From assembly GCA_022796195.1 (NCBI GenBank), contig JAAWIE010000009.1, positions 1-47,748 of the forward strand: DNA of 47,748 nt, read 5' to 3'. The stretch comes from Lawsonibacter sp. Its GTDB lineage: Bacteria; Bacillota; Clostridia; Oscillospirales; Oscillospiraceae. Positions within the stretch are counted from its first letter, which is position 1, and each line of letters starts with the position of its first letter. This document shows, one piece after another, positions 23,294 through 43,773 of the stretch. Both the position numbers and the translations under genes were made by a program. Under the pieces are notes generated by a model that was given only the letters and a program-made list of their open reading frames with translations, made no database searches and was not told the DNA's origin.

Positions 23294-23294
23294 G

Positions 23295-23980: not shown

Positions 23981-24480
23981 GCGCGGGGCTGGAACACATC
24001 CGCCGGAATATGGCGGATTACCTCAAGGAACAGGGCATCTGCGCCCTGACTGCTTGGCCCGCAAATCCAAGGCAGGAGCAGGAAGAACCGGTGGTCTTGG
24101 TCTCGCTGCGGGGATGCCGGGCCGGCCCGGCCTGCTTTCAGAACTATTTGGGTGACCGGTTCGGCCAGGAGAGCGGCTGCTGGGAGGAGCGGTACGGAAA
24201 AAAAGCGGAGCTTACCTTTGGACTGGACATCTACGCCCCGGAAAAAGGGGATGGAGAGGCAGTACAGAGAGCCTTTGACGCGTTGGCCGGGGCGCTGATT
24301 CTGGGCGGTCCAGAGGGGCTGGATGTGCAGTCCTTCTCCTGCGGAGAGACCTGCCGGGATGGGGAGAGCCGGAGGCTGAAACGACCGGTGGAGGCCGTCT
24401 GTTCCGCCATTTTGTGCGCGGTGTCTAGTGTGGACGGCTCATTTGTGGATTTTGAATTGCGAGGTGTTATGAAACCATGA
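23977..24480 (+). CDS. Tail terminator/completion-like protein
   Basis: 167-residue protein between the head-closure gene and the tail sheath, the normal place of the tail-terminator (gpU/gp17-like) protein that caps the tail for joining to the head. Visible segments include LTFGLDIYAPEKGDGEAVQRAFDAL in mid-protein (about 75-100), an alpha/beta pattern of that class. Sequence recognition is weak; the call rests mainly on order and size. It overlaps the sheath gene by 4 bases. Confidence 0.5.
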   Translation: MSAGLEHIRRNMADYLKEQGICALTAWPANPRQEQEEPVVLVSLRGCRAGPACFQNYLGDRFGQESGCWEERYGKKAELTFGLDIYAPEKGDGEAVQRAFDALAGALILGGPEGLDVQSFSCGETCRDGESRRLKRPVEAVCSAILCAVSSVDGSFVDFELRGVMKP

Positions 24481-25535
24481 GTATTTCAGTACATCAGCGC
24501 CCGGGGGTTTACTCCTCCTACGGCGCGTCTACCGTGGTCAGCGGCTCCGGTTCCGGCCGGGTGGTGGGACTGGCCGCGATCAGCTCCGCTAAGCCGGAGG
24601 GGACAGTACAGATGGTTACCAGCTACGAAAAGGCCGTGGCTGCGTTCGGCAACGGTGGACCAGAAGAGGTGACTGAGCTGATCCGTCTGGCCCTGAAAAA
24701 CGGGGCCTCCGGGGTGGCGGTGGCCCCTGTGTCTAACGCGAACGGCTATGAGGCGGCATTCGCCCTGCTGGCTGGACAGGAGGACATTGCGCTGGTCCTG
24801 TGCGACAGCACCGATACCGCCGTGCAAAAAAAACTGCGGGACAGTGTGGCAGAAGCCTCAGAGCTGCGCCGGGAGCGGCTGTGCGTGGTAGCGGGAGCCA
24901 AGGACGAGAGTGTAGACAATCTGATCCAGCGGGCCAAGGAGATGAACCACGAGCGAGTAGTGCTGGCAGCCCCCGGCTGTGTGGACGGGACGGGAAAGAG
25001 CATCTCTGGCCTGCCTCTGGCCGCCGCTCTGGCGGGCGCTATCGCTGGAGAAACTGACCCCGCCCTCCCCTTGGGGGGCGTGGAACTGGCCGGACTGAAT
25101 GGGCTGGCTGTTCGGATTGAGGACCGGGATATGGACCGGCTGATCCTGGGCGGCGTGACTCCAGTGGAGAGCTTTGGAGGGACAGTGAGTGTGGTGCGGG
25201 GAGTGACGACACGGACCACCACTGGAGGGACGGCGGACGCCTCCTGGCGGGATTTGTCCGCTATTCGAGTGGTCGATGATGTGATTCCCGGACTGAGAAA
25301 TGTCCTGCGGGCCAAGTTCCGCCGGGCCAAAAATACACCCCAGAGCCGGGGTGCGATCCGTGCCCAAGTGGTGCTGGAGCTGGAGAATAAGCTGGCCCGG
25401 GAGATTATTACCGGATATGAGGATGTAACCGTCTCCGCTGACCCGGAGGACCCTACCCGCTGTCTGGTGGAATTTGCCTTTACTGTGGCCCACGGGCTGA
25501 ATCAGATTTGGCTGACCGCCCACATTACCGTATAA
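24477..25535 (+). CDS. Phage tail sheath protein
   Basis: 352-residue contractile sheath subunit. It starts with the sheath hallmark HQRPGVYSSYGAS and includes a DVIPGLRNVLRAKF segment and a C-terminal domain ending in FAFTVAHGLNQIWLTAHITV. Its presence defines a contractile (myovirus-type) tail. Length is at the short end for PBSX XkdK-type sheaths, so only the core domains are likely present. Confidence 0.9.
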   Translation: MSISVHQRPGVYSSYGASTVVSGSGSGRVVGLAAISSAKPEGTVQMVTSYEKAVAAFGNGGPEEVTELIRLALKNGASGVAVAPVSNANGYEAAFALLAGQEDIALVLCDSTDTAVQKKLRDSVAEASELRRERLCVVAGAKDESVDNLIQRAKEMNHERVVLAAPGCVDGTGKSISGLPLAAALAGAIAGETDPALPLGGVELAGLNGLAVRIEDRDMDRLILGGVTPVESFGGTVSVVRGVTTRTTTGGTADASWRDLSAIRVVDDVIPGLRNVLRAKFRRAKNTPQSRGAIRAQVVLELENKLAREIITGYEDVTVSADPEDPTRCLVEFAFTVAHGLNQIWLTAHITV

Positions 25536-25616
25536 CGCTGAGGAGCGGCGGAACACAGCGCCCCTGGGGGCCGGGAGAGGCCCCGCAGCGGGCGGAACTT
25601 GGAAAGGAGGCACATT

Positions 25617-26006
25617 ATGAGCATTGCAGGATTTCCTACCAGCAGCGACATCTATTTGGAGGTGGACGGAATTCGGGTGGCAGTGGTGCAGAGCTATGCG
25701 GTGAAAACCACCAAAAGCAGCACTGTGGTGGAGGCGTTCGGCGAGGCGGAGCCGGTGGCTACTGCCCCAGGTCAGGCCGTCCACACCATTGAGCTGACCC
25801 GGCTGTACGCTACCGATGAGGCGATTCGGGACAACATCGACTTTTACGCCCTGAACGGGTTCTCCCTGGTTATCTGCAAGCCGGATCGGAGAATCATCTA
25901 CTCTGACTGTCAGTGGAGTTCCATTCAGGAGAGCGCCAATATTGGCAGTATGGTGCTGGAGAAAGTGACGCTGGTGGCTTCACGGCGCATTGAGACGGGG
26001 GTGTGA
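25617..26006 (+). CDS. Phage tail tube protein
   Basis: 129-residue inner tube subunit following the sheath, the order found in PBSX-type phages (XkdK-XkdM). The sequence is a compact beta-barrel type: IYLEVDGIRVAVVQSYAV near the start and LVASRRIETGV at the end. ATG 25617 was chosen because AAGGAGG lies 8 bases before it; the frame extends upstream by six codons through the ribosome-binding site. The stop overlaps the next gene. Confidence 0.8.
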   Translation: MSIAGFPTSSDIYLEVDGIRVAVVQSYAVKTTKSSTVVEAFGEAEPVATAPGQAVHTIELTRLYATDEAIRDNIDFYALNGFSLVICKPDRRIIYSDCQWSSIQESANIGSMVLEKVTLVASRRIETGV

Positions 26007-26008
26007 GT

Positions 26009-26392
26009 ATGTCTTTGTCCATGCTGGCCGGAAAAGAGAGGCTCTGTCTGGGAAACGGATTCGACTTGCGGCTGCTCTCGGCACTGGAGGTTCTCCAGGC
26101 CCGGCGGGAGGGGAGCGAGCTGGCGGAGGATGGGCGAGAGCTGGCCCTGTGCTCCAACGCCTGCCTCCTGGCTCGGGCGCTGGAACGGTCTGAGGATCAG
26201 ACCCCCGTCTTTTCGGATGGGAAAGCAGTATTGGCTGGGATGACAGCGGAGGAAATTGCCCGTCTGGCCGGGCGGTGGAGCGGCTTTCGGCAGGAGAACG
26301 ACCCAGGGCTGGACCTGCCGGAGGACGGGCTGGAACAGGTAAAAAAAAACTCCGTGACAATCCCGGAGAACGGCTGCGGTGGAGGGTGCTGA
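26009..26392 (+). CDS. Tail assembly chaperone, zero-frame product (gpG-like)
   Basis: About 127 residues, from ATG 26009 (a GTG at 26003 overlapping the previous stop is the alternative). It lies after the tube gene, where long-tailed phages encode the chaperone pair that coats the tape measure before tail assembly. Near its end is GTA AAA AAA AAC, a run of nine A then C, where ribosomes can slip back one base into a frame open to 26646. Ribosomes that do not slip stop at 26392. Function is inferred from position and this frameshift site. Confidence 0.75.
   Translation: MSLSMLAGKERLCLGNGFDLRLLSALEVLQARREGSELAEDGRELALCSNACLLARALERSEDQTPVFSDGKAVLAGMTAEEIARLAGRWSGFRQENDPGLDLPEDGLEQVKKNSVTIPENGCGGGC
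26344..26350 (+). promoter_or_regulatory. Programmed -1 ribosomal frameshift site A_AAA_AAC
   Basis: The heptamer is in the correct register: A26344, then zero-frame codons AAA (26345-26347) and AAC (26348-26350), the last part of nine consecutive A. The GC-rich downstream stretch (CTCCGTGACAATCCCGGAG) can fold back, as CTCCG 26350-26354 with CGGAG, giving a stimulating stem. The -1 frame is open from here for 98 codons. Confidence 0.8.
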
Positions 26393-26646
26393 GACAGTTC
26401 GGCGCATTGCCTACCGAGAGCCGGGTGCGGGCGATGAAAGGGCGGGACTATTTGTGGTGTCTGGTAAACGGTATTCTGGACCGGGAAGAGGCCCTGGAGA
26501 GACTGTGCCCCACCTGCCGGACCAGGGCATTGGAGGAGCGGTGCTCCGCCTGCGGACGGCCTGCCGGGGACTGGGAGGAGAGTACCGCCAATGCCGCTTT
26601 TGACCTGAGCCGCTTTGAACAGCTGAAAGGGGGGACGCGGTCTTGA
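26350..26646 (+). CDS. -1 frame extension of the tail chaperone (gpT-like part)
   Basis: Has no well-supported start of its own; it is reached by slippage at 26344-26350, giving a fusion of about 212 residues. The extension starts LRDNPGERLRWRVLRQFGA and includes RDYLWCLVNGILDREEAL and a zinc-knuckle-like pair CPTC...CSAC. Its stop (TGA 26644-26646) overlaps the TTG of the following gene. In lambda the equivalent G-T fusion binds the tape measure. Confidence 0.7.
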   Translation, partial: LRDNPGERLRWRVLRQFGALPTESRVRAMKGRDYLWCLVNGILDREEALERLCPTCRTRALEERCSACGRPAGDWEESTANAAFDLSRFEQLKGGTRS

Positions 26647-27266
26647 CCAACTATCTGGAGGAACTGCTGGACAATGCCAACGCTCTGCTGGAACAGGTGC
26701 AAAGGCTGGAGCGGAGCGGGACCGGACCGGACTGGGAGGACGCAGCATTGGAAGGCGTAACAAGACGCTTTGCAGGGAGGGAGCCGGGGAAGGAGACCCG
26801 GAGGACTCTGGAGGAAAAACGCAAGACCGCGCAAGGCAGGACCGCCTCCGGTGGGGAGGAGCGGGAGGAGGGGGCGGTTTTGAAGGCCGGCGAGGCCCCG
26901 GAACCGCCCCAGAGAGTACAGACGCCGCTGGAAGAGAGGGAAAAAGAGCTTCCCCTGCTGGAACAGATCGAGCGGCTGGAACGGGCGTTGGCGGCGCCTG
27001 GTGTAGCGGAGGCGGGATCGGGGGCAGGACCGCGAAGTGCCGTCTGGAGCGGCTGGGACCAGAGCCGGCAGCGTGTACCCCATGGGACGGCTGGGCAGGA
27101 ACGAGCTCCGGGCTATGCCGCCGTGTTGGGAGAACAGGAGCAATGGTACGGGCTGGACCGTCTGGAATGGAGCGGGACCGGCGGAGAACAGGTCTGGGCG
27201 GAACAGGCCGACCGGGTATTTCGGCGGGACAGCCGCCGGTATGACGGAGGCTTTTATCTCTACTAG
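26643..27266 (+). CDS. Unknown 207-residue protein at the tape-measure position
   Basis: TTG start overlapping the previous stop, with AAAGGGGGGA upstream. The protein is very rich in Glu, Arg and Gly. It has two copies of a short coiled-coil-like motif: LLEQVQRLER at 15-24 and LLEQIERLER at 105-114. No membrane segment is visible. The C-terminus is RRYDGGFYLY. A tape measure normally follows the chaperone and is 600-1500 residues with hydrophobic helices. This gene is either an extremely short replacement or an unrelated protein occupying the slot. I do not recognise a family. Confidence 0.6.
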   Translation: MTNYLEELLDNANALLEQVQRLERSGTGPDWEDAALEGVTRRFAGREPGKETRRTLEEKRKTAQGRTASGGEEREEGAVLKAGEAPEPPQRVQTPLEEREKELPLLEQIERLERALAAPGVAEAGSGAGPRSAVWSGWDQSRQRVPHGTAGQERAPGYAAVLGEQEQWYGLDRLEWSGTGGEQVWAEQADRVFRRDSRRYDGGFYLY

Positions 27267-27278
27267 AGGAGGGACAAG

Positions 27279-27857
27279 ATGCTTTTATCACCTATGCGTT
27301 ACAAAGACTACACCTGGCCGCACAACCCCAGAGTATACACCATCGACTACCGCCGGACCATGGCGGTGCAGAAGGTTCCCTTCGGCGGATATCTGCTTCA
27401 GGACCTGGGACAAGAGCATCGGGTGATGGAGGGGGAGGGCGAGTTTGCAGGCGAAGGAGCTTACCGTGAATTTCAGAAGCTGGCCTCGGTCTTCTACGAC
27501 CGGGGGCCGGGACTGCTGGTCCACCCCCTTTGGCAGGCGGCAAATACTTACTTTGTCTCTCTGCGGCTGGAACAAGAGCCCAGGCCCGATTATATCCGCT
27601 ACTCCTTCGCCTTTTGGGAGGAGGGGAACGGTTCCAGCGGAGTGCCAGAGCGAGTGGTGGAATCCGCTGTTCAGGGCGGCGGGGAAGCGCCAGGTCAGGC
27701 CGGCGGTCAAGCCGTGCGGCATCGGGTGGCAAAGGGCGAGACGCTTTGGGCGCTGGCTGAACGCTATGGGCTGACGCTGGCGGAACTGGTGGCCCTGAAC
27801 CCCCAGATTAAAAATCCCAACCTGATTCGGGTGGGAGAGGAGGTGCGGGTGCGTTGA
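27279..27857 (+). CDS. Tail protein with C-terminal LysM domain (XkdP-like)
   Basis: 192 residues. The N-terminal two-thirds (MLLSPMRYKDYTWPHNPRVY onward) resembles the baseplate-hub-associated XkdP/gp53-like proteins. The C-terminal LysM (about 147-192; HRVAKGETLWALAERYGLT then NPQIKNPNLIRVGEEVRVR) binds peptidoglycan or helps assemble the tail tip. A low-complexity Gly/Gln/Ala linker separates them. AGAGGAGGG precedes the ATG. It overlaps the next gene by 4 bases. Confidence 0.8.
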   Translation: MLLSPMRYKDYTWPHNPRVYTIDYRRTMAVQKVPFGGYLLQDLGQEHRVMEGEGEFAGEGAYREFQKLASVFYDRGPGLLVHPLWQAANTYFVSLRLEQEPRPDYIRYSFAFWEEGNGSSGVPERVVESAVQGGGEAPGQAGGQAVRHRVAKGETLWALAERYGLTLAELVALNPQIKNPNLIRVGEEVRVR

Positions 27858-28804
27858 CAGCCTATGTGACCGACGCTAAAGGGCGGCGATGGAGTCTCCC
27901 CGCCCCGCTGGCCTGGCGGATGGAGTATACGGCCGGCGTGCCCTGCGACAGCTTCTGGATGCGCTGTCCTTGGGAGAAAAACAGCCCTACAAAGCCGGAA
28001 GGCTGGGTGGAGTTCGCGGCAGACCACGCAGGAGAGCGGGTGTTTACCGGTTTGGTGGACGAGTGCGAAGTGAGCGTGACGGTCAAGGGCAGGATTCTGG
28101 AGCTGTCCGGCCGGGGAATGGCCGCGCGCCTGCTGGATAACGAGGCACTGGGACAGGACTATCAGTCCGCCACACAGGCGGACATCATCCGGGACCATGT
28201 GGCACCCTACGGTGTGGAGGTGGCACCGGGAGCGGTCCTGCCGCCGGTGTCCCACCTGTCGGTAGCAACTGGGAGCAGCGAGTGGTCGGTGGTCTATGAG
28301 TTTGCACGGTACTACGGCGGAGTGGCCCCCAGATTTGACCGGCTGGGACGGCTGGTGTTGTCCGGCTGGAACGACAGCCGGGAGCGGGTGGTGGACGACA
28401 GTGCCCGTCTGCTTGCCCTGCTGCGCCGGGACCGGCGGTATGGGGCGCTGTCTCAGGTGCTGATGCGGGACCGGTGGAGCGGCCGGGTAGAGCAGGTAGA
28501 CAACGCCGCCCTGCTGGCCTGCGGGGGAATGGCCCGCAGGGTGATTACCATGCCAACCCGGAGCAGCTATAAGGCAATGCGTTACTCTGGACAGTTTCAG
28601 CTGGAGAAGTCGGCTGCGGAACTGGAACGGGTGGAGGTGACACTGGGCGAGCCCTTTTGTGCTTGGCCGGGAGACTTGGTGACCATTCAGCGGGCGGACT
28701 GGGACTGGAACGGCCGTTACCGGGCGGCTCAGGTGAGCGTGGGTATGGACAGCGGGGGCTATTGGACCCGGATTGAGCTGGCTCTGCCGGATTTTGTAAT
28801 ATAA
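27854..28804 (+). CDS. Baseplate hub protein (XkdQ/gpD-like)
   Basis: 316 residues, TTG start overlapping the previous stop (TTGA) with GGAGAGGAGGTG upstream. Order and pattern fit the tail-hub protein of PBSX (XkdQ) and P2 gpD: a beta-rich N-terminal part with VFTGLVDECEVSVTVKGR, a central RVITMPTRSSYKAMRYSGQF and a C-terminal OB-like LGEPFCAWPGDLVTIQ. Hub proteins anchor the spike at the tip of the tube. The start could instead be GTG 27866. Confidence 0.75.
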   Translation: MTAYVTDAKGRRWSLPAPLAWRMEYTAGVPCDSFWMRCPWEKNSPTKPEGWVEFAADHAGERVFTGLVDECEVSVTVKGRILELSGRGMAARLLDNEALGQDYQSATQADIIRDHVAPYGVEVAPGAVLPPVSHLSVATGSSEWSVVYEFARYYGGVAPRFDRLGRLVLSGWNDSRERVVDDSARLLALLRRDRRYGALSQVLMRDRWSGRVEQVDNAALLACGGMARRVITMPTRSSYKAMRYSGQFQLEKSAAELERVEVTLGEPFCAWPGDLVTIQRADWDWNGRYRAAQVSVGMDSGGYWTRIELALPDFVI

Positions 28805-28820
28805 GAAGGGATGCGATGTG

Positions 28821-29258
28821 ATGTGGACATCGGAACGGAGTAGAAATCTGCCCGTGCGGGAGGCGGCGGCAGAACTGGGAACCGTCACTCTGGGGGGAGA
28901 CCCCGCCGGAGTGAGTTTGGGGGGCGAACGGCGGTGGCTGACGGTCTACAGCCCGGGAGGATACAGCTGGCGGCCAACGGCGGGGGACCGGGTGATGGTG
29001 CTCAAGGCTGGTGCGGAAGAGGAATCCCCCTGCATTATGGGAACGGTGCAGAACGGCAGGGAACTGAAAGCCGGCGAGGTGCGGCTGACTGGGGGTGTGT
29101 GCGAAATTATGCTGGGCCAGGATGGTTTGCGGCTGACCAATGAACGGGGCGGACTGGAATTGACGGAAGACCGCACTGAGCTGACCGGAGAGGTTTATAT
29201 AAATGGGAAGACCCTGAGAAGCTTGATTCGGGAAATTGTTATTTCCCTGTTGGGGTAG
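28821..29258 (+). CDS. Baseplate spike protein (gpV-like)
   Basis: 145 residues. A beta-rich OB-type N-terminal part (LTVYSPGGYSWRPTAGDRVMVL) is followed by a repetitive beta segment (VRLTGGVCEIMLGQDGLRLT, then ELTEDRTELTGEVYINGK) that would form the trimeric needle. This is the architecture of P2 gpV, which pierces the cell surface. ATG 28821 was chosen (GTG 28818 also possible) with AAGAAGGGA upstream. No metal-binding HxH tip is evident, and the spike is short. Confidence 0.7.
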   Translation: MWTSERSRNLPVREAAAELGTVTLGGDPAGVSLGGERRWLTVYSPGGYSWRPTAGDRVMVLKAGAEEESPCIMGTVQNGRELKAGEVRLTGGVCEIMLGQDGLRLTNERGGLELTEDRTELTGEVYINGKTLRSLIREIVISLLG

Positions 29259-29268
29259 GAGGCGTGGT

Positions 29269-29613
29269 ATGGAGTGGAAATTGGTGGATGGAGACTATAT
29301 CCCAAATGGGACAGGCGGGCTGACTGCCCTGTCCGGCGGCGAAGAGGTGCTGGCCCGGGTGCTGTATCGCCTGACTGCCCGGCGGGGCGCGTTCCCCTTT
29401 CTGCCTGAGCTGGGCAGCCGGCTGTATCAGTTGGGTCGGGAGAGTCCCTCCGCACGGCAGGCTTTGGCCGTCCAGTATGTGGCGGAGGCCCTAAGGGAAG
29501 AGAAGGACTTGAAGGTGGAGGACGTGGAACTGGTTCAAACGGGAGAGACAGGATTTCTGAGTGTCCGTTTAAACTGGCAGGGGAAGCCTTTCGCTGCAGA
29601 GGTGGCGCTGTGA
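29269..29613 (+). CDS. Baseplate wedge protein (gpW/gp25-like)
   Basis: 114 residues, matching the gp25/GpW lysozyme-like-fold wedge proteins: FPFLPELGSRLYQLGRESPS aligns with the EPR-type conserved core region, followed by QYVAEALREEKDLKVEDVEL. It links the sheath to baseplate wedges in contractile systems. TAGGAGG lies 8 bases before ATG 29269. The order spike, wedge, gpJ-like, gpI-like is the same as in P2 and PBSX. Confidence 0.78.
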   Translation: MEWKLVDGDYIPNGTGGLTALSGGEEVLARVLYRLTARRGAFPFLPELGSRLYQLGRESPSARQALAVQYVAEALREEKDLKVEDVELVQTGETGFLSVRLNWQGKPFAAEVAL

Positions 29614-29661
29614 TTGGTGCGCCTGCTGCTGGATGGGGACTATGACGCAAGGGGGAAAACG

Positions 29662-30717
29662 ATGAAAACCGTAGATGAAATCTATCGGGAGATGCTCTCC
29701 GGCTTTGGAGAACGGACCGGTCTGGAGCCGCGGGAGGGGTGCGACCTGGCTGTGCGGCTGTACGCTGTGGCGGCGCAAGTCTATGCCCTGTATGTACAGG
29801 CCGAATGGGTGGTCCGACAGGCGTTTCCGCAGACGGCAGAGGGGCAATACCTGGACCGGCACGCTCAGCTCCGGGGGCTGGAACGCAAGCCGGCGGTGGC
29901 CGCAGAGGGGAGAGTGGTCTTTTCCGCGCTGGAGACGGCCTCCCTGCCCCGGGACATCCCAAAAGGGACGGTGTGTATGACGGCAGGGCTGGTACGCTTC
30001 GAGACTACCGAAGGGGCAGTGCTGGCGGCGGGGCAGACCAAGGTAGAGGTTCCGGTGCGGGCGCTGGAGCCGGGAGCGGCGGGCAATGTGTCAGCCGGGG
30101 CCATCCTCGCGATGGCCGTGGCCCCTATGGGCGTGGCCTCCTGCAACAACCCAAAAGCCTGCGCGGGCGGAGCCGATGGGGAGGAGGATGCGGCCCTGCG
30201 GGCTCGGGTGCTGGATACCTTTAAACGCCTGCCCAATGGGGCAAATACAGCTTTCTATCAACAGGGGGCGCTGTCCTTTGAACAGGTGGCTGCGGCGGCG
30301 GTTATCCCCCGGCCAAGAGGGGTGGGGTCGGTGGATGTGATTCCGGCCACTCTGGCGGGCATTCCCAGTACGGCATTGCTGAAAGAACTGGAAGACTACT
30401 TCAATGAGCGGCGGGAGATAGCAGTGGATTTGAGAGTACGGGCACCCTCTACCGTGACGGTAAATATTGCGGTAAAGGTTGCCCACGGTGAGGGACAGGA
30501 CCGGGCCCAAGTGCTGGCTCGGGTAGAGAAGACCCTGCGGGACTGGTTTACCGGAAAACTGCTGGGGCAGGACGTTCTCCGGGCTAAGCTGGGGGAGCTG
30601 ATTTATCATTGCGAAGGGGTGGCCAATTACACAATTACTACGCCTGGAGCGGATGTGCCGGTGGATGACGACGTACTGCCTGTGCTGGGTACCTTGAAGG
30701 TGGAGGCGAAGACATGA
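29662..30717 (+). CDS. Baseplate J family protein (XkdT-like)
   Basis: 351 residues, the main wedge component of simple contractile baseplates. The N-terminus MKTVDEIYREMLSGFGERTG is typical, followed by QTAEGQYLDRHAQLRGLER and the conserved GNVSAGAILAMA segment before the C-terminal domain (AGGADGEEDAALRARVLDTF). ATG 29662 was preferred to the more upstream TTG 29614 because homologues begin this way and AAGGGGG lies 7 bases before it. The stop overlaps the next gene by 4 bases. Confidence 0.88.
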   Translation: MKTVDEIYREMLSGFGERTGLEPREGCDLAVRLYAVAAQVYALYVQAEWVVRQAFPQTAEGQYLDRHAQLRGLERKPAVAAEGRVVFSALETASLPRDIPKGTVCMTAGLVRFETTEGAVLAAGQTKVEVPVRALEPGAAGNVSAGAILAMAVAPMGVASCNNPKACAGGADGEEDAALRARVLDTFKRLPNGANTAFYQQGALSFEQVAAAAVIPRPRGVGSVDVIPATLAGIPSTALLKELEDYFNERREIAVDLRVRAPSTVTVNIAVKVAHGEGQDRAQVLARVEKTLRDWFTGKLLGQDVLRAKLGELIYHCEGVANYTITTPGADVPVDDDVLPVLGTLKVEAKT

Positions 30718-31283
30718 GACATGCAGTTTGCCTGCGGGACCTGCTCCAGCCCCTGGGGGTCTATGACCTGTCTGCCCCCTTCAATGGCGGTGAATTGGAT
30801 GTGCAGGGGGAAGTCCTGGACGGGATTATGGCTTGGCTGGAGGAAATTCAGCGGGAATCCTCCTTGACAACGGCAGAGGACTGGGGACTGGAGTATATTG
30901 CAAAACTCTTTGCCCGCCGCCCAGTAGCGACCCAGCCCCGCAAGCTGGCCGCCGCTCTGGCTGCCCTGCTGCGCATTGGCGGAGACAGCTTTACGCTGGC
31001 GGCGATTAACGACACCATTGCCGGCTGCGGCATCCCCGCTGTGGTCAAAGAGCTGGGCAAAGGGAGCGTGTCTGTCTCTTTCCCCGGTGTGGCCGGCGAG
31101 CCGGAGAATTTTGAGGAACTGAAAAAAATTATTGAGGATATTCTGCCCACCCATCTGGGAATTGACTACTTCTTCTGGTATCTGACTTGGGCAGAGCTGG
31201 AGGCTAATTTTCAGAACTGGAGAGCCATTGAGAGTCCAGGGCTGACCTGGAAGCAGTTGGAGACCTGTGTGGAATATCTGTAG
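30714..31283 (+). CDS. Baseplate/tail protein, P2 gpI-like (XkdU-like)
   Basis: 189 residues. It follows the J protein, as XkdU/gpI (DUF2313) does, and has the pattern of an N-terminal helical YDLSAPFNGGELDVQGEV part followed by an alpha/beta half (LGKGSVSVSFPGV, then IIEDILPTHLGIDYFFWYLT). It attaches fibres to the baseplate in complete phages. It is the last gene of the cluster: no fibre, holin or endolysin follows, only a hairpin and host genes on the other strand. Confidence 0.75.
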   Translation: MRHAVCLRDLLQPLGVYDLSAPFNGGELDVQGEVLDGIMAWLEEIQRESSLTTAEDWGLEYIAKLFARRPVATQPRKLAAALAALLRIGGDSFTLAAINDTIAGCGIPAVVKELGKGSVSVSFPGVAGEPENFEELKKIIEDILPTHLGIDYFFWYLTWAELEANFQNWRAIESPGLTWKQLETCVEYL

Positions 31284-31328
31284 AACATACCGCCCCGGCA
31301 CTTACAACAAGTGCCGGGGCGGTATGTT
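31284..31328. terminator. Perfect 20-base inverted repeat between convergent genes
   Basis: 31284-31303 pairs with 31309-31328 without mismatch around a 5-base loop (ACAAC); the core is CCGCCCCGGCACTT. It starts right after the stop of the last phage gene and its right arm reaches the ligase stop codon (31327-31329). It probably stops transcription from both sides, although there is no long T-run. It marks the right boundary of the phage cluster. Confidence 0.65.
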
Positions 31329-32961
31329 ATCCCTGATTTTGCGCCTCTACCAGACGCATGCCGCAATACTGCGCCCGCAGCTTGGGCTTTTCGATTTTGC
31401 CGGTGGGGTTGCGGGGAACGGGGGCGAAGATGATTCTTCGAGGCCGCTTGTACCGGGGCAGGTCCATGCAAAACTGGTTAATCTCGCTCTCGGTACAAGT
31501 CATGCCCTCCTTGAGCTGGATGATAGCGGCGGCAATTTCCCCCAAACGCTTGTCGGGCAGGCCGATGACGGCCACATCATGTACCTTGGGGTAGGCGGTG
31601 AGGAAGTTTTCGATCTGCACTGGGTACAGGTTTTCCCCGCCGGAGATAATCACGTCCTTTTTTCGGTCCACCAGGAAGATAAAACCGTCTTCGTCCTGGC
31701 GGGCCATATCGCCGGTGTGGAGCCAGCCGTTTTCCAGAACCTCGGCGGTGGCCTCTGGATTTTGGTAATAGCACACCATCACGCCGGGACCTTTTACGCA
31801 CAGCTCGCCGACCGCTCCCGGCTGGACGGGGATATTCTGCTCGTCCACAATTTTGACCTTCCAGCCGTAGCCGGGGACACCGATTGCGCCTACCTTGTGG
31901 ACATGGTCTACCCCCAGGTGGACACAGCCCGGACCGGTGGACTCGGACAAGCCGTAGTTGGTGTCATATTTGTGGTGGGGGAAGTAACTCAGCCAGTGCT
32001 TGATGAGGGAGGGGGGGACAGGCTGAGCGCCAATGTGCATCAGCCGCCATTGGGACAGATGAAAATCCGCAAGGTTCAGTTCGCCCCGGTCAAGCGACGC
32101 CAAGATATCCTGGGCCCAGGGCACCAGCAGCCAGACGATTGTGCATTTCTCCTGGCTGGCAGCCTGGAAGACGGCCGAGGGGGAATTGCCCTTGAGAAGC
32201 ACCGCTTTGCTTCCGGTGAACAAAGAGCCGAACCAGTGCATTTTGGCTCCGGTGTGGTACAGGGGTGGGATACACAAAAATACGTCCTCGTGAGTGGTCT
32301 CGTGGTGGATGGCCTCCATCCGGGCCGACTGCATCAGGGCGGCGTGCTTGAGCAAAATTGCCTTGGGGAAGCCGGTGGTGCCGGAGGAGTAGTAGATGGC
32401 CCCGTCGTCCTCGTCGTCCACCAGCACCTTGGGGGCGCGGCTGGAGCAGTTGGCGGTGGCCCGCAGATAGTCTTCGGCGAAAGAAGGGCAGCCCTCTCCT
32501 ACAAAAAACAGCAGCATCTGCCGGGATATTTTGGGGACAATGGGTTCCATCCGGCTGATAAACTCCGGGCCGAAAAAGAGTACGTCGGCGTCTGCCAGTT
32601 TGAGGCAGTAGTCGATCTCGGCAGAGGTGTAACGGAAGTTCAGGGGAACGGCAATCGCCCCCGTTTTCAAAATGCCGAAATAGATGGGAAGCCACTCCAG
32701 ACAGTTCATCAGCAGAACAGCCACCTTCTGTCCCTTGCGGATGCCCCGGCCCAATAGCATGTTGGCCACACGATTGGCCTTTTCGTCAAAGACAGACCAG
32801 GTGATCTCCCGGCGGTAGGATGCTTCGCCGGTGGGCTGAATCAGCTCATACTCTTTCCAGGTCACCCGTTGTTCCTCCCGGAGCTCCGGGTTGATCTCCA
32901 CCAAGGCGGTTTCATCGCCGTACAGCTTGCTGTTTCGTTCCAGCAGGTCGGTGATTGGCAT
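31327..32961 (-). CDS. AMP-dependent acyl-CoA synthetase/ligase
   Basis: 544-residue ANL-superfamily adenylating enzyme that activates a carboxylic acid via acyl-AMP to the CoA thioester. The P-loop-like YYSSGTTGFPKAIL lies near residues 190-203, followed by NYGLSESTGPG (A5 motif), GWLHTGDMARQDEDGFIFLVDR (A7/A8 hinge) and a catalytic-lysine region NPTGKIEKPKL near the C-terminus. The substrate cannot be read from sequence; medium-chain or aryl acids are possible. ATG 32961 was chosen because AAAGGAACG lies upstream. It has its own promoter (33023-33051) and is not clearly tied to neighbours. Confidence 0.9.
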   Translation of the reverse strand: MPITDLLERNSKLYGDETALVEINPELREEQRVTWKEYELIQPTGEASYRREITWSVFDEKANRVANMLLGRGIRKGQKVAVLLMNCLEWLPIYFGILKTGAIAVPLNFRYTSAEIDYCLKLADADVLFFGPEFISRMEPIVPKISRQMLLFFVGEGCPSFAEDYLRATANCSSRAPKVLVDDEDDGAIYYSSGTTGFPKAILLKHAALMQSARMEAIHHETTHEDVFLCIPPLYHTGAKMHWFGSLFTGSKAVLLKGNSPSAVFQAASQEKCTIVWLLVPWAQDILASLDRGELNLADFHLSQWRLMHIGAQPVPPSLIKHWLSYFPHHKYDTNYGLSESTGPGCVHLGVDHVHKVGAIGVPGYGWKVKIVDEQNIPVQPGAVGELCVKGPGVMVCYYQNPEATAEVLENGWLHTGDMARQDEDGFIFLVDRKKDVIISGGENLYPVQIENFLTAYPKVHDVAVIGLPDKRLGEIAAAIIQLKEGMTCTESEINQFCMDLPRYKRPRRIIFAPVPRNPTGKIEKPKLRAQYCGMRLVEAQNQG

Positions 32962-33022
32962 TGTGCTCGTTCCTTTCCATACGGATGGCTCCGTGTGCTT
33001 CATTGGTTTTATTCGTTAAAGT

Positions 33023-38251: not shown

Positions 38252-38280
38252 TTGACAAATGCAGAGGGGAGGATTATAAT
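38252..38280 (+). promoter_or_regulatory. Full-consensus promoter of the T-box operon
   Basis: TTGACA (38252-38257), 17-base spacer, TATAAT (38275-38280): a perfect match to the housekeeping consensus. Expected start near 38287, directly before the T-box leader. Regulation therefore rests on the leader rather than the promoter. Confidence 0.88.
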
Positions 38281-38288
38281 TCACTACA

Positions 38289-38573
38289 ATAAAGCGTTAG
38301 ATGGAGACAAAGTAGAACGCAGGTCCGGCTAGACAGAGAGTTCCCGGCAGGTGAGAGGGGCATAGCTGTGCGTTTGAAATTTCATCTCCTGAGCTGTCCG
38401 AGGAAAGGCCGGGGGCCGAGTAGAGCGGAACGGGCCCTCCCGTTACAGAGGAGGGGCATTGCTGGATGCTCCGAGAGGCCGTTTTTGTAAGAGAGCGGCA
38501 AATAGAGGTGGTACCGCGGGAAAATTCCCGTCCTCTGGGTCGAAAGACGCCAGAGGTTTTTTTGTATCGCTGC
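38289..38573 (+). ncRNA. T-box leader, probable tRNA-Phe specifier (UUC)
   Basis: Near 38514-38530 is the conserved T-box AGAGGTGGTACCGCGGG; its UGGU bulge (38519-38522) would pair with an uncharged ACCA end. Antiterminator: AGAGG 38514-38518 with CCTCT 38542-38546, plus CGGG with CCCG. Terminator: CCTCTGG 38542-38548 with CCAGAGG 38560-38566 and seven T. Stem I: AGAT 38299-38302 with ATCT 38384-38387 below, AACGCA 38316-38321 with TGCGTT 38369-38374 above. The loop has AGTA on one side and GAAAT-TTC-A on the other. TTC (38381-38383) reads as Phe; the neighbouring register TTT is also Phe. AACGGG...CCCGTTA marks stem III. Confidence 0.88.
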
Positions 38574-38606
38574 AAGAAACTGGATGTAGAAAATGAACGG
38601 TGATTC

Positions 38607-38635
38607 TTTACTTTTTGACTTCCCCGTGCTACACT
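38607..38635 (+). promoter_or_regulatory. Possible second promoter downstream of the T-box terminator
   Basis: TTTACT (38607-38612), 17-base spacer, TACACT (38630-38635), about 50 bases before the TrpR-like gene. If active it would give expression that bypasses the T-box. Both hexamers deviate from consensus, so this is tentative. Confidence 0.35.
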
Positions 38636-38686
38636 TTCCACAAGTGAATTCCATCTTGGAAATCAGCTTGAAAAGGAGTGTTACAC

Positions 38687-39001
38687 ATGGCGAAAGCGGA
38701 AAAGAGAGAACGAAGCATGGCTCTCTATGAGACCATCCTGAAGCTGAAGGACTTGGACGAGTGCTGCCGGTTCTTCGATGACCTGTGTACCCCCACGGAG
38801 CTGCGCAGCCTGGAGCAGCGGTTCGACGTGGCGGTGTACCTCCAGCAGGGGCTGGTCTATCTGGACATCCTGGATAAGACGGGGGCCTCCAGCGCCACTA
38901 TCAGCCGGGTCCGGCGGTCCATGCTGGATAATGGTGCGGGCGGTGTGATGCAGGAGGTCATTGCCCGAGAGGGACTCCACGAAAAAAATGAGGAGCCATA
39001 G
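38687..39001 (+). CDS. TrpR-like regulator YerC/YecD
   Basis: 104 residues, a member of the TrpR/YerC superfamily. The helix-turn-helix lies in the second half: SLEQRFDVAVYLQQGLVYLD, then GASSATISRVRRSM as recognition helix. E. coli TrpR binds tryptophan, but ligands of the YerC branch are unknown. AAGGAG lies 9 bases before ATG 38687. As the first gene behind the Phe T-box and upstream of iorAB, it may sense an aromatic amino acid or tune the operon; this is an inference. Confidence 0.88.
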   Translation: MAKAEKRERSMALYETILKLKDLDECCRFFDDLCTPTELRSLEQRFDVAVYLQQGLVYLDILDKTGASSATISRVRRSMLDNGAGGVMQEVIAREGLHEKNEEP

Positions 39002-39058
39002 GGGGTGCGCAAGGCGCGCCCTGTGCCGGAAACCTTAAAAAGAAAGCAGGAAGAGCGT

Positions 39059-40783
39059 ATGAAACAACTGATGCTGGGCAACGCCGCCGTTGCCCGAGGA
39101 CTGTATGAGGCGGGATGCTGTGTGATCTCCAGCTATCCCGGCACCCCCAGCACGGAGATTACCGAGGAGGCTGTAAAATTTCCCGAAATCTACTGTGAAT
39201 GGGCGCCCAACGAGAAGGTGGCTTTGGAGACCGCCTTCGGGGCCTGTCTGGCGGGGAAACGGGCCTTTTGTGCAATGAAGCATGTGGGGCTGAACGTAGC
39301 TGCCGACCCGCTGTATACCATGGCCTATACCGGGGTGAACGCAGGACTGGTGATCGGCGTGGCCGACGACCCGGGGATGCACTCCTCTCAGAATGAGCAG
39401 GACTCCCGTCATCACGCCATTGCCGCTAAGGTGCCCATGCTGGAGCCCTCCGACTCCGCCGAGGCGCTGGAGTTTGCCAAGCTGGCCTATACGATCAGCG
39501 AGCAGTTCGATACCCCAGTGCTGTTGAAGATGTGTACCCGGGTGGCCCACTCCCAGTCCCTGGTGGAAACCAGCAGCCGGACAGAGCCCGAGTGTAAGCC
39601 CTATGAGAAGAACATCGGAAAATATGTTATGATGCCCGGCAATGCCATCCGCCGCCACCCCTTTGTGGAGCAGCGTACCCAAAAGCTTCAGGAGTGGGCG
39701 GAGACTGCTCCAATCAATCGGGTGGAGATGGGCGGAACCAAGGTGGGGGTTATCACTTCCTCTACTTCTTACCAATATGTGAAAGAGGTCTTTGGGGACA
39801 CTGTGTCCGTGCTCAAATTGGGGATGGCCAACCCTCTGCCGGTCCGGCTCATTCAGGAATTTGCGTGTAAAGTAGAAAAGCTTGTCGTTGTGGAGGAGAT
39901 GGACCCCATCCTCGAAAACCACTGCAAAGCCCTGGGGCTGACCGTCTCCGGAAAGGATGTACTGCCCATGGAGGGGGAGTTCTCCCAAAACCTCATCGCG
40001 GAAAAGCTGGGCGGGACGGTACATACAGGCCGGAGCATTGAGGATGTTATCCCTCCCCGTCCCCCCGTCATGTGCGCCGGATGCCCCCACCGGGGACTGT
40101 TCTATACCTTGAGTAAACAGAAATGCACCGTTCTGGGGGATATCGGCTGCTATACCCTGGGGGCGGTGGCCCCGCTGGCGGCTATGGACATGGCTCTGTG
40201 TATGGGGGCCTCCATCTCCGCTGTCCACGGCTTCAACAAGGCCCGGGGGGCCGAGGCTGAGGGGAAAACGGTGGCTGTCATCGGCGATTCCACCTTTATG
40301 CATTCCGGCATGACCGGCCTTGCTAATATCGCCTATAATCAGTCCAATTCTACCGTAATCATTCTGGACAACTCGATCACCGGCATGACCGGCCACCAGC
40401 AGAACCCTACTACCGGTTACAACATCAAAGGCGATCCTGCCGGGAAAATTGACCTGGAGGCCCTGTGCCGGGCGATGGGCTTCCAGCGGGTGCGAGTGGT
40501 GGACCCCTACGATTTGAAGGCCGTCGGCACGGCAGTCAAAGAGGAACTGGCGGCCGCTGAGCCCTCCGTGATCATCAGCCGCCGCCCCTGCGCTCTGCTG
40601 AAGTATGTCAAGCATGAGGCCCCCCTCACGGTAGACCCGGTGAAATGTGTGGGCTGCCGGAGCTGTATGAAAATCGGCTGCCCCGCCATCTCCATCAAGG
40701 AGGGCAAGGCCCATGTGGACGCCACCCTCTGTGTGGGCTGCGGCGTGTGCGAGCAGATGTGCGGCGTGAAGGCGTTCGGGTGA
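39059..40783 (+). CDS. iorA: Indolepyruvate:ferredoxin oxidoreductase, alpha subunit
   Basis: 574-residue subunit that interconverts aryl-pyruvates and arylacetyl-CoA plus CO2 with ferredoxin, using thiamine diphosphate. The N-terminal pyrimidine-binding part starts MKQLMLGNAAVARGLYEAG. CAGCPHRGLFYTLS and DIGCYTLG mark the core, and VIGDSTFMHSGMTGL carries the diphosphate-binding GDS motif. Two C-terminal [4Fe-4S] ferredoxin motifs follow: CVGCRSCMKIGCP and CVGCGVCEQMC. ATG 39059 was chosen because AGGAAGAG precedes it. With ferredoxin reduced enough the reaction can run as reductive carboxylation. It pairs with iorB downstream. Confidence 0.96.
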   Translation: MKQLMLGNAAVARGLYEAGCCVISSYPGTPSTEITEEAVKFPEIYCEWAPNEKVALETAFGACLAGKRAFCAMKHVGLNVAADPLYTMAYTGVNAGLVIGVADDPGMHSSQNEQDSRHHAIAAKVPMLEPSDSAEALEFAKLAYTISEQFDTPVLLKMCTRVAHSQSLVETSSRTEPECKPYEKNIGKYVMMPGNAIRRHPFVEQRTQKLQEWAETAPINRVEMGGTKVGVITSSTSYQYVKEVFGDTVSVLKLGMANPLPVRLIQEFACKVEKLVVVEEMDPILENHCKALGLTVSGKDVLPMEGEFSQNLIAEKLGGTVHTGRSIEDVIPPRPPVMCAGCPHRGLFYTLSKQKCTVLGDIGCYTLGAVAPLAAMDMALCMGASISAVHGFNKARGAEAEGKTVAVIGDSTFMHSGMTGLANIAYNQSNSTVIILDNSITGMTGHQQNPTTGYNIKGDPAGKIDLEALCRAMGFQRVRVVDPYDLKAVGTAVKEELAAAEPSVIISRRPCALLKYVKHEAPLTVDPVKCVGCRSCMKIGCPAISIKEGKAHVDATLCVGCGVCEQMCGVKAFG

Positions 40784-40846
40784 TGAGCACCCGCAAAGGC
40801 GCACATTTTGCGCCCTGACACCCAAAACAAGGAGTTGCTTCAAGAT

Positions 40847-41419
40847 ATGGAAACCAAAAATATTATGATTGTCGGCGTGGGGGGACAGGGCTCCCTCTTG
40901 GCCTCAAAGCTGCTGGGCCATCTGCTGATGGAACAGGGCCACGACGTAAAAGTGTCCGAGGTTCATGGCATGTCCCAGCGGGGCGGAAGTGTGGTTACAT
41001 ACGTTCGTTACGGCGATAAGGTAAGCTCACCTGTCATCGACCGGGGGGAGGCGGACTACATTGTCTCCTTTGAACTGCTGGAGGCGGCCCGGTGGCTGAG
41101 CTACCTCAAGCCCGACGGTCAAATCGTCACCTCCACCCAGCAGATTGACCCAATGCCCGTCATCACCGGCGCAGCTGCTTACCCGGAGAATCTGGTAGAA
41201 AAAATGCGCGCCGCCGGAGCCAAGGTGGATGCTCTGGATTGCCTCAAGTTGGCCGAGGAGGCTGGTTCTGCAAAAGCAGTGAACATCGTCCTTATGGGAC
41301 GGCTCTCCCACTACTTTGACCTGCCTGACGAAGCGTGGCAGAAGTCCCTGGAAGCTATGGTGCCCCCCAAGTTTTTGGAGCTGAATCAAAAGGCGTTTGA
41401 ACTGGGGAAAAACGCATAA
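40847..41419 (+). CDS. iorB: Indolepyruvate:ferredoxin oxidoreductase, beta subunit
   Basis: 190-residue gamma-domain-type subunit that completes the IOR heterotetramer and binds CoA. The N-terminus has IMIVGVGGQGSLLASKLLGH and the invariant EVHGMSQRGGSVVTYVRYG. ATG 40847 starts the Rossmann-like fold; the AAGGAG upstream is somewhat far (about 12 bases). It follows iorA with a 63-base gap without an evident promoter, so they form one operon. Confidence 0.95.
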   Translation: METKNIMIVGVGGQGSLLASKLLGHLLMEQGHDVKVSEVHGMSQRGGSVVTYVRYGDKVSSPVIDRGEADYIVSFELLEAARWLSYLKPDGQIVTSTQQIDPMPVITGAAAYPENLVEKMRAAGAKVDALDCLKLAEEAGSAKAVNIVLMGRLSHYFDLPDEAWQKSLEAMVPPKFLELNQKAFELGKNA

Positions 41420-41511
41420 AAGAGATATGGTATCTGTCCCGCCTGCGGGCAGTAAGGCTCCTTTGGAGCAATTCTTTAACTTTATCATAATTCAGGAAGG
41501 AAGCATGAACA

Positions 41512-41886
41512 ATGGGACTCTTTTCCAATCTTTTTGGCGGCGGCGCCAAGAAAGTTGAGGAAGTCAACGACGCGAATGCTCAGGCGCTGAAGCAGTTTTT
41601 TAAAGAAAATCTGCCCAGTGAATTCGTAAATTCTGCCCGGTACGCCATCTCCATTACCCGAGGGGACAAGGGTTACGAGGCCCGGATGAACATGGACATG
41701 GGGGCGGATGGCTCCACCTATGACGGCTTTGCCAAAGAAAACTTTGCGGAACTGGCAGACTGGGAATCGGAGCGGGTATTTGATCTGCTGCCAGAGCCGC
41801 CAGTTACTGTGATTGTTATTTTTGACATGGACTTTGGCGGCAAGAACAAGGTTACGATGAACCGGGGCCGCCTCCTGGCAAAATAA
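41512..41886 (+). CDS. Small protein of unknown function in the ior-paaK operon
   Basis: 124 residues starting MGLFSNLFGGGAKKVEE, which resembles the amphipathic N-termini of peripheral membrane proteins. A body with ITRGDKGYEARMNMDMGADG and VTVIVIFDMDFGGKNKVT follows. I do not recognise a family. GGAAGGAAG lies 9 bases before the ATG. The gap after iorB has short hairpins (CCCGCctGCGGG and GCTCCtttGGAGC) that may weaken transcription. Its position between iorB and the ligase suggests a link to arylacetate use, but this is context only. Confidence 0.7.
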   Translation: MGLFSNLFGGGAKKVEEVNDANAQALKQFFKENLPSEFVNSARYAISITRGDKGYEARMNMDMGADGSTYDGFAKENFAELADWESERVFDLLPEPPVTVIVIFDMDFGGKNKVTMNRGRLLAK

Positions 41887-41981
41887 GAAAAAACAATATT
41901 TTTCATAAGGTTTTCTTTTGGTTCCTTTCTTTCTATAAAAGAAAAGAACATAAGACATACAACCCGAAAGGAATGATACCC

Positions 41982-43283
41982 ATGGAACAATACTACCAGC
42001 CCGAGATTGAGTGCGCGTCCCGGGAACAGATCAAGGAATGGCAGGACGAGCGGCTTGTGAAACAGGTGCGCCATGTCTGGGAGAATGTACCCTACTACCG
42101 CAAAAAGATGGAGGAGAAGGGGCTTACCCCCGACGATATCCGCTCCAGCGACGACCTGTACAAGCTGCCCTTTGTTACCAAAGCCGACCTGCGGGAGGCT
42201 TACCCCTACGGGCTGGTAGCCAAGCCGCTGAAGGAGTGTGTGCGGATTCAGTCCACCTCGGGCACCACGGGCAAACGGGTTGTGGCCTTCTACACCCAGC
42301 AAGACATCGACCTCTGGGAGGACTGCTGCGCCCGGGCCATCATGGCCGCAGGGGGGACCGACGAAGATGTGTGTCAGGTGTCCTACGGCTACGGCCTGTT
42401 CACCGGCGGTCCCGGCCTGAACGGCGGGTCCCACAAAGTGGGGTGCCTTACGGTTCCCACCTCTTCGGGCAACACCGAGCGGCAGATCATGTTCATTCAG
42501 GACCTGAACGCCACCATTCTGTGCTGTACCCCCTCCTACGCCGCCTACATCGGGGAGACCATGAAGGAAATGGGCCTCACCCCCGACCAGATTCCCCTGA
42601 AGGCGGGCATTTTCGGCGCGGAGGCCTGGAGCGAGGAGATGCGGCAGGATATCCAGAATACCCTGGGTATTAAAGCCTATGATATTTACGGCCTGACCGA
42701 GCTGTCCGGCCCGGGGGTGGCCTTTGAGTGCTCTGCTCAGACCGGAATGCACATCAATGAGGACCACTTCATCGCTGAGATTATCGACCCCGACACCGGT
42801 GAGGTCCTCCCCGAGGGGAGCCGGGGCGAACTGGTATTCACCTCCATCACCAAGGAGGCGTTCCCCCTCCTGCGCTACCGCACCCGGGACATCTGTATGC
42901 TCACCCGGGAAAAGTGCTCCTGCGGCCGCACCCACGTGAAGATGTGCAAGCCCATGGGCCGCTCCGACGATATGCTCATCATCCGGGGCGTCAACGTCTT
43001 CCCGTCCCAGATTGAGACCGTTCTGCTCAACCACGGCTACCCCGCCAATTACCAGATCATTGTGGACCGGGTGAAGTCCACCGACACCCTGGATGTTCAG
43101 GTGGAAATGACCCCCGAAATGTTCACCGACAACATGGGCGAAATCACCGCACGGCAGAAGGAACTGGTGGACGGCCTGCGGGCCATGCTGGGCCTTGCGG
43201 CGAAGGTTACCCTTGTGGCTCCCAGGACCATCGTCCGCAGTGAGGGCAAGGCGGTCCGGGTCATTGACCGGCGGAAGATTTAA
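41982..43283 (+). CDS. paaK: Phenylacetate-CoA ligase
   Basis: 433-residue AMP-forming ligase making phenylacetyl-CoA from phenylacetate, CoA and ATP. It starts with the PaaK pattern EQIKEWQDERLVKQVRHVWE, then QSTSGTTGKRVVAFYTQQD (P-loop), FGAEAWSEEMRQDIQ, DIYGLTELSGPGVAFEC and the C-terminal GRSDDMLIIRGVNVFPSQIE. Length matches the family. ATG 41982 was chosen over 41973 because GAAAGGA fits it better. Substrate may extend to 4-hydroxyphenylacetate and indoleacetate. It supplies or uses the arylacetyl-CoA handled by IorAB. Confidence 0.94.
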   Translation: MEQYYQPEIECASREQIKEWQDERLVKQVRHVWENVPYYRKKMEEKGLTPDDIRSSDDLYKLPFVTKADLREAYPYGLVAKPLKECVRIQSTSGTTGKRVVAFYTQQDIDLWEDCCARAIMAAGGTDEDVCQVSYGYGLFTGGPGLNGGSHKVGCLTVPTSSGNTERQIMFIQDLNATILCCTPSYAAYIGETMKEMGLTPDQIPLKAGIFGAEAWSEEMRQDIQNTLGIKAYDIYGLTELSGPGVAFECSAQTGMHINEDHFIAEIIDPDTGEVLPEGSRGELVFTSITKEAFPLLRYRTRDICMLTREKCSCGRTHVKMCKPMGRSDDMLIIRGVNVFPSQIETVLLNHGYPANYQIIVDRVKSTDTLDVQVEMTPEMFTDNMGEITARQKELVDGLRAMLGLAAKVTLVAPRTIVRSEGKAVRVIDRRKI

Positions 43284-43296
43284 GGAGGAACGACCT

Positions 43297-43731
43297 ATGA
43301 GCATCAAACAGATTTCTGTATTTCTGGAGAACAAACCCGGTGCGCTCTACGCCATGACCGGGGTGCTGGCTCAGAATAACATCGACATGCGGGCCTTTTC
43401 TCTGGCTGAGACCAGCGATTTCGGGATCGCCCGGGTGATTGTGGACGACGTCTACAAGACCGCTACCGTCCTGAAAGACGCGGGCTTTGTGAACAGCGTG
43501 ACCCCTGTGCTGGGCGTCGCCATTCCGGACGTGCCCGGGGGACTGAACCGGGTTCTTCAGGCCCTCACCGACGCCAGGGTGAACGTGGAGTACATGTATG
43601 CCTTTCTGGGCGGCAGGGACGCAGAACATGCCTGTATGATTTTCCGTGTGGAGGACAACGCTGCGGCCTCCGCCGCTCTGTCGGCCCGGGGCATCCGGAC
43701 GCTGAAACAGGAAGAGATCGACAGGCTGTAA
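43297..43731 (+). CDS. Tandem ACT domain protein
   Basis: 144 residues forming two ACT domains: ISVFLENKPGALYAMTGVLA begins the first, PDVPGGLNRVLQALTDARVN (about residue 70) the second. ACT domains usually bind amino acids to regulate a partner enzyme. Genes of this sort often sit next to phenylacetate-CoA ligases in anaerobes. Binding of Phe or another aromatic amino acid to adjust PaaK or IOR is a reasonable inference. AAGGAGG lies 8 bases before the ATG, 13 bases after paaK, so they are cotranscribed. Confidence 0.9.
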   Translation: MSIKQISVFLENKPGALYAMTGVLAQNNIDMRAFSLAETSDFGIARVIVDDVYKTATVLKDAGFVNSVTPVLGVAIPDVPGGLNRVLQALTDARVNVEYMYAFLGGRDAEHACMIFRVEDNAAASAALSARGIRTLKQEEIDRL

Positions 43732-43739
43732 ACAGGAAA

Positions 43740-43773
43740 ACTCCCGCTTCGGCGCTGCGCCGGAGCGGGAGTC
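43740..43773 (+). terminator. Terminator of the ior-paaK operon
   Basis: ACTCCCGCT (43740-43748) pairs with AGCGGGAGT near 43764-43772, with an inner CGGCG/CGCCG stem, followed by CCTTTATATA. The T-run is short. It also faces the convergent TraX-like gene ending at 43776. Confidence 0.65.

Follow-up and report, generated by a model that had tools for sequence, protein, structure and literature searches.

Phenylalanine and tyrosine T-boxes precede arylacetate ligase-like and indolepyruvate oxidoreductase genes in Clostridia and suggest a salvage route for aromatic amino acids

We analyzed a stretch of 47,748 nucleotides from Lawsonibacter sp. (family Oscillospiraceae; NCBI GenBank assembly GCA_022796195.1, contig JAAWIE010000009.1), hereafter the window. 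Positions 38,252 to 43,773 hold a T-box leader specific for phenylalanine (Phe), followed by a TrpR-family regulator gene, the indolepyruvate:ferredoxin oxidoreductase (IOR) genes iorA and iorB, a small gene, a phenylacetate-CoA ligase-like gene (paaK) and a double-ACT gene (Table 1). Tyrosine (Tyr) T-boxes precede related ligase and ior genes in other families. An initial annotation of this DNA had proposed an operon that is switched on by lack of Phe and makes phenylpyruvate from phenylacetate; its gene order was borne out by family matches. Both IorA and IorB exceed the curated cut-offs and thus qualify as indolepyruvate:ferredoxin oxidoreductase subunits. The ligase aligns near end-to-end with a solved phenylacetate-CoA ligase (4r1l; E 1e-122), and we call it PaaK-like because its score falls short of the NCBIfam equivalog cut-off of TIGR02155. 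The small gene encodes 124 aa, matched neither Pfam nor NCBIfam families at a limit of E 0.01, and is present in some of the genus loci but not in others. We can only infer that the regulator gene through the ACT gene form one transcript, because the terminator scan overlooked the bulged T-box terminator, which makes its silence elsewhere weak evidence, and shows a terminator-like site of 5 pairs (41457-41469) in the gap separating iorB from the 124-aa gene. The scan found 4 terminator-like sites, compared to 6.9 in shuffles.

Table 1. Positions of the operon, its control elements and a separate ligase gene in the window.
Feature	Positions	Strand	Evidence
P1, promoter of the T-box transcript (TTGACA-17-TATAAT)	38252..38280	+	12/12 consensus bases
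T-box leader, Phe-specific	38288..38538	+	RF00230, 103.7 bits; 21 leaders aligned
Specifier triplet UUC (Phe)	38381..38383	+	21/21 leaders, preceding bases variable
Antiterminator, UGGU at 38509-38512	38503..38537	+	fold -14.4 kcal/mol, z -3.0
T-box intrinsic terminator and T run	38532..38563	+	fold -16.8 kcal/mol, z -3.8; bulged
P2, second promoter-like element (TTTACT-17-TACACT), operator-like spacer partly eroded in the window	38607..38635	+	alignment of 57 loci
TrpR-family (YerC-like) regulator gene, ior-linked paralogue	38690..39001	+	TIGR02531, 88 bits (cut-off 42.2); tree
iorA, indolepyruvate:ferredoxin oxidoreductase alpha subunit	39059..40783	+	TIGR03336, 707.7 bits (cut-off 650.9)
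iorB, beta subunit	40847..41419	+	NF005325, 274.6 bits (cut-off 230)
Small gene, 124 aa, between iorB and paaK	41512..41886	+	no family match
paaK, phenylacetate-CoA ligase-like gene	41973..43283	+	TIGR02155, 510.4 bits (under cut-off 646.3)
Double-ACT protein gene	43297..43731	+	PF19571 (ACT_8); relative of solved 2f06
Terminator-like hairpin 3' of the last gene	43740..43772	+	15 pairs
Long AMP-forming acyl-CoA ligase gene, apart from the operon	31327..33003	-	PF00501

The leader matches all 219 positions of the covariance model RF00230 at E 6e-22, which rules out a chance match, and its score lies above the gathering cut-off of 93 bits. Antiterminator and terminator stretches fold separately and have CCUCU in common, as expected of alternative structures, supporting the full T-box leader of the initial annotation; the Stem I stretch alone folds no better than shuffles (z 0.62). 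RNAalifold found 65 consensus pairs on the 21 aligned leaders, with two-sided changes in 26 of them. The specifier loop is GAA-A-UUUC-A, closed by the helix GGAGA/UCUCC. Counted from the 5' side the triplet is UUU and from the 3' (helix) side it is UUC, either of which encodes Phe. A single triplet, UUC, is invariant in all 21 leaders (the window and 20 genus loci), while the bases ahead of it vary, giving AGUUCC in L118 and GGUUCA in L125 and L127, with A or C as the next base. Because of this constancy against a variable background, we read the specifier as Phe, the amino acid first assigned to it from the letters TTC. The consulted sections of PMC7778990 (TBDB) prioritize the triplet that lies 2-4 bases before the presumed loop end, which here is UUC. 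Readings as Ile (AUU) or Ser (UCA) were ruled out by the helix register together with the 21 leaders. The leader is thus predicted from its sequence to respond to tRNA-Phe. Ten T-boxes occur in the source genome, none of them on the contig with prephenate dehydratase. By the same rule, and with genes named by eye, the T-box before pheS (L007) carries UUC in an unusual loop, and others fit their genes as well: valS (GUG), ilvB (CUC) and glyS (GGC). The gene behind a further T-box (L006) resembles an ABC substrate-binding protein by eye.

The genus sample consisted of 60 iorA loci fetched from 63 other genomes, and one locus, L095, extends too short a distance upstream to be assessed (277 bases, with no T-box in an E-value scan). 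A leader lies at the same place in 20 of the 59 assessable loci. The two checks that the initial annotation had suggested for the leader, a comparison with T-box covariance models and a search for a Phe codon at the same place in related genomes, thus both came out in its favor. P1-like promoters occupy the same position across the aligned T-box loci, as judged by eye. The 39 remaining loci were covered by a core-motif scan, by gathering-score scans of 27 and by an E-value scan of 12. Scans at the Rfam gathering score lack sensitivity, having missed clear leaders in L098, L125, L130 and L014; the motif scan recovers 21/21 leaders, but this is not an independent control because the same scan had found them. 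When T-box presence (18 of 54 genus loci) is mapped on a tree of IorAB, it takes 12 changes, of which starred branches force 8 or more; 24 of 500 shuffles were as low as 12, so presence is only weakly clustered. The T-box is patchy within the genus. The alignment shows the leaders to be plainly homologous, and repeated loss or transfer of the leader is likely.

Aromatic T-boxes are not confined to this genus. IorA was found in 202 of 291 genomes of the class (E <= 1e-100). Among 80 named loci, 74 of which have at least 700 bases upstream, T-boxes were found in L014, L015, L017 and L027 only, and motif matches in L042, L051 and L065 were set aside as chance by eye. An initial sample of the class comprised 40 stretches upstream of iorA, about 1.4-1.8 kb long except for one of 373 bases. 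It contained no T-box, and its three motif matches were put down to chance; the reason is that a ligase gene stands ahead of iorA in many loci, and longer stretches revealed T-boxes. We listed the T-boxes of 59 genomes with known iorA positions, in sets of 19 (among the matches listed, which reach to about E 7e-18), 20 and 20. In 11 of the 59, spanning six families, iorA is preceded at a distance of 1.76-4.13 kb by a T-box core of the same orientation (G125, G265, G134, G215, G299, G304, G175, G199, G245, G192 and G200). All eleven carry GAAUACA ahead of the closing helix, placing UAC (Tyr) as the specifier. By our estimate, from 180 T-boxes in 19 genomes, chance would place about 0.5 such T-boxes in the 59 genomes. 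The fraction is not a random rate, because 40 of the genomes were picked partly for families with a ligase upstream of iorA, or because the stretch was already being read; the motif match in G199 was known before its inclusion. Like the Phe leader, the Tyr T-box is patchy: no T-box near iorA was found in G222, of the genus of G265, G304 and G175, or in G405, of the genus of G125. A motif scan alone found none in G159, G376, G102, G214 and G325, and the contigs of G181, G205, G246, G280 and G404 end soon upstream of iorA.

A long AMP-forming ligase directly follows the Tyr leader in six of the eleven loci; in the other five (L243, L244, L246, L248 and L250) a sodium:solute symporter gene comes first, then the ligase, iorA and iorB. 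The symporter, named by family search in L243 and L244 and by eye in L246, L248 and L250, is a candidate importer of arylacetate or tyrosine. In L250, an amidohydrolase-family gene (PF04909; 2241-3032) lies between symporter and ligase. Genes for paaK and the ACT protein are also present in the stretch read in 4/11 loci. The long ligase of the window, encoded apart from the operon, is 65-73% identical to the ligases in L220 and L241-L250, and in 38 of 60 genus loci the sequence ahead of iorA includes a long ligase gene in the opposite orientation.

That aromatic T-boxes recur, each lineage with a specifier of its own, is the new finding and a stronger one than the single operon. Because Phe or Tyr T-boxes precede the ligase and ior genes, the pattern suggests that the enzymes run in the building direction. 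We consider it probable that the operon serves to salvage Phe from phenylacetate via phenylpyruvate, a functional claim that is well supported by regulation and comparison. The PaaK-like ligase would activate phenylacetate using ATP and CoA, IorAB, drawing on reduced ferredoxin, would carboxylate phenylacetyl-CoA to phenylpyruvate, and the last step to Phe would fall to an aminotransferase whose gene lies elsewhere. When tRNA-Phe is charged, transcripts from P1 should end at the T-box terminator; uncharged tRNA-Phe would pair with UUC and UGGU and stabilize the antiterminator, letting RNA polymerase enter the genes. The anabolic proposal of the initial annotation gains independent support from the Tyr T-boxes that other families carry ahead of related ligase and ior genes.

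Both the direction of flux and the substrate can be read in other ways. The operon could ferment Phe, with IorAB oxidizing phenylpyruvate to phenylacetyl-CoA, as IOR does in Pyrococcus, and the ligase running in reverse to phenylacetate; the consulted sections of PMC13285125 also tie a Bacteroides IOR to phenylacetate formation. We regard this as unlikely: a T-box switches genes on with uncharged tRNA, the wrong moment for Phe degradation, the ligase is AMP-forming, and Tyr T-boxes recur ahead of such genes in other lineages. A stronger competitor is that the enzymes are reversible and general for phenyl-, hydroxyphenyl- and indoleacetate, the T-box reporting only the scarcest amino acid of each lineage. 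The specifier does vary with lineage, being Phe in this genus and Tyr elsewhere, and published IORs accept all three arylpyruvates according to the same sections of PMC13285125, whereas the constancy of UUC in 21 genomes favors a Phe role within the genus. We hold such generality to be a substantial possibility, though not the one we would choose, and it is compatible with Phe salvage.

The operon probably has another input besides the T-box. The gap from the T-box terminator to the TrpR-family gene contains a second promoter-like element, P2, with 8/12 consensus bases and a score under the promoter-scan threshold. Across 57 aligned loci, mean column identity is 93% in the -35 element, 79% in the spacer and 80% in the -10 element, compared to 46-49% in the flanks. 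A script search found a site of this type in 58 of 61 sequences, one of them false (L095). The spacer core CRCTTTANTGTGYTAA is exact in 21 loci; the consensus with up to three mismatches had no match in the window, whose own copy has the eroded spacer. The conservation of the spacer suggests that it is an operator. P2 occurs in loci with and without a T-box; it therefore looks like the older promoter, in front of which the T-box was added as a further input. Being conserved and behind the T-box terminator, P2 may bypass that terminator, and would give T-box-independent expression, probably under the TrpR-family protein encoded first. The claim that the operon is switched on by lack of Phe is therefore supported in part: the Phe T-box is probably one of two inputs and is absent from most of the genus loci.

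The regulator gene itself stands ahead of iorA in all 60 fetched genus loci and in 28 of the 80 named loci, some of whose contigs end early. The source genome has three TrpR-family members, scoring 92.4, 90.9 and 70.7 bits, of which the ior-linked one scores 70.7 and the 90.9-bit copy has a gene of the aromatic amino acid lyase family nearby. L156 (5202-5720) shows a TrpR-family paralogue beside such a lyase-family gene, possibly a histidine-use regulator with HutH. In the 64-row family tree, 37 ior-linked rows from several families and one unlinked row form a group that stands apart from 22 other copies, and the ior-linked proteins do not group with the other copies of the same genomes. Support for the ior-linked grouping is 94/95, just short of a star, from few columns and with long branches. 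The TrpR-like protein of the operon thus belongs to an ior-linked clade separate from HisR-like copies.

This bears on the idea that we are dealing with the histidine repressor HisR in an accidental position. The consulted sections of PMC9413887 equate yerC with hisR and place Flavonifractor among the genomes with a site before hisR, and the HisR motif given there, cacTTTAnnnnnnTAAAgtg, is similar to the P2 spacer core CRCTTTANTGTGYTAA. The protein also passes TIGR02531. However, the two other copies in the source genome score higher than the ior-linked one, each of the 25 genus genomes searched (25/25) has the ior-linked copy and one or two others, and the ior-linked copies from several families cluster together just under the star. 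We therefore find a misplaced HisR doubtful. Like HisR/YerC, the regulator of the operon is a TrpR-family member and would have an operator of comparable type; it differs in its separate ior-linked clade. It is also conceivable, if rather improbable, that the T-box mainly serves the regulator gene, which stands first, while P2, conserved with and without a T-box, or other promoters drive the enzyme genes; the weak terminator-like site 3' of iorB fits such an arrangement. Against it, the scan showed no terminator-like site between the regulator gene and iorA (the same scan that missed the T-box terminator), and the 11 Tyr-T-box loci have no TrpR-family match above 60 bits among the matches listed, their T-boxes lying ahead of transporter or ligase genes.

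Several points weigh against Phe salvage as set out here. With the ligase below its equivalog cut-off, phenylacetate is not certain to be its substrate; P2 may bypass the T-box; and 39 of the 59 assessable genus loci lack a T-box. Two T-boxes of the source genome fit the specifier rule poorly: that of L003 reads AUC (Ile), with no Ile gene seen by eye in the short stretch behind it near the contig end, and that of L006 is ambiguous between UGG (Trp) and GGA. Work cited in PMC13285125, in the sections consulted, has the Bacteroides IOR taking part in conversion of Phe to phenylacetate, which is the reverse of salvage. De novo synthesis is also widespread, with prephenate dehydratase (PDT) in 61 of 64 genus genomes, including the source genome, where it is fused to chorismate mutase, and prephenate dehydrogenase in all eleven Tyr-T-box genomes. 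No PDT match was found in G044, G049 and G060 among the 64 genus genomes, and no dehydrogenase match in G044, G049, G405 and G160 among the 44 genomes searched; G405 and G160 nonetheless showed no T-box near iorA. The T-box as a mark of lost de novo synthesis was rejected, as only G044 (94% complete, L133) and G049 (79%, L101) fit, having a T-box and missing both matches; G060 was not read for a T-box. A natural dependence on salvage is possible in these two genomes. Because de novo Phe synthesis is kept, the best reading is a salvage route beside it rather than a sole source.

Elsewhere in the window, a THF riboswitch lies outside the operon at 4542-4637 (72.5 bits). Genes resembling a contractile-tail prophage by eye occupy about 21000-31300, ending beside the long AMP-forming ligase gene.

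Compared to known systems, the leader is a typical transcriptional T-box riboswitch (RF00230), with the AGUA/GAA specifier loop, UGGN, antiterminator and terminator; what differs is its target, arylacetate ligase-like and IOR genes. Among the matches listed, in a search with subscription literature mostly outside it and with a Geobacter genome paper that contains all the relevant terms left aside, we found no publication joining a T-box to IOR or phenylacetate ligase. The main text of a T-box target survey (PMC2494555), so far as it was consulted, lacks the terms oxidoreductase, phenylacet and CoA ligase, and in the consulted part of PMC6167468 IOR and phenylacetate ligase both appear solely as tabulated marker genes of the rumen. 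Methanogenic archaea are described as running IOR in reverse to make amino acids (cited in the sections of PMC13285125 used here), in contrast to the present bacterial case with its aromatic T-box and its TrpR-family and double-ACT genes. The same sections describe a Bacteroides IOR beside an AMP-forming arylacetate-CoA ligase, an adjacency shared with the present loci. They tie kinases to aromatic amino acid fermentation, describing a kinase route of Tyr fermentation, and note that the AMP-forming ligase next to the Bacteroides IOR may indicate biosynthesis. The direction is unsettled there, whereas here regulation argues for biosynthesis.

Rumen anaerobes have long been known to convert phenylacetate to Phe, and the ligase-IOR operons would supply candidate genes for this step. 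The direction of IOR and its ligase in gut bacteria is unsettled; aromatic T-boxes in seven families, with specifiers that depend on lineage, constitute genetic evidence for biosynthesis and open the question to direct test. A wider model, for and against which we see about equal grounds, is that many Clostridia operate tRNA-controlled salvage of aromatic waste. A symporter would import, and an AMP-forming ligase and IOR would rebuild into Phe or Tyr, the phenylacetate or hydroxyphenylacetate of other microbes. The specifier would tell which amino acid a lineage makes, paaK going with Phe and the longer ligase with Tyr, and in one branch a dedicated TrpR-family repressor would set a second promoter. 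We propose that Clostridia may in this way import the phenylacetate and hydroxyphenylacetate that other microbes release when they ferment aromatic amino acids, and use them for protein.

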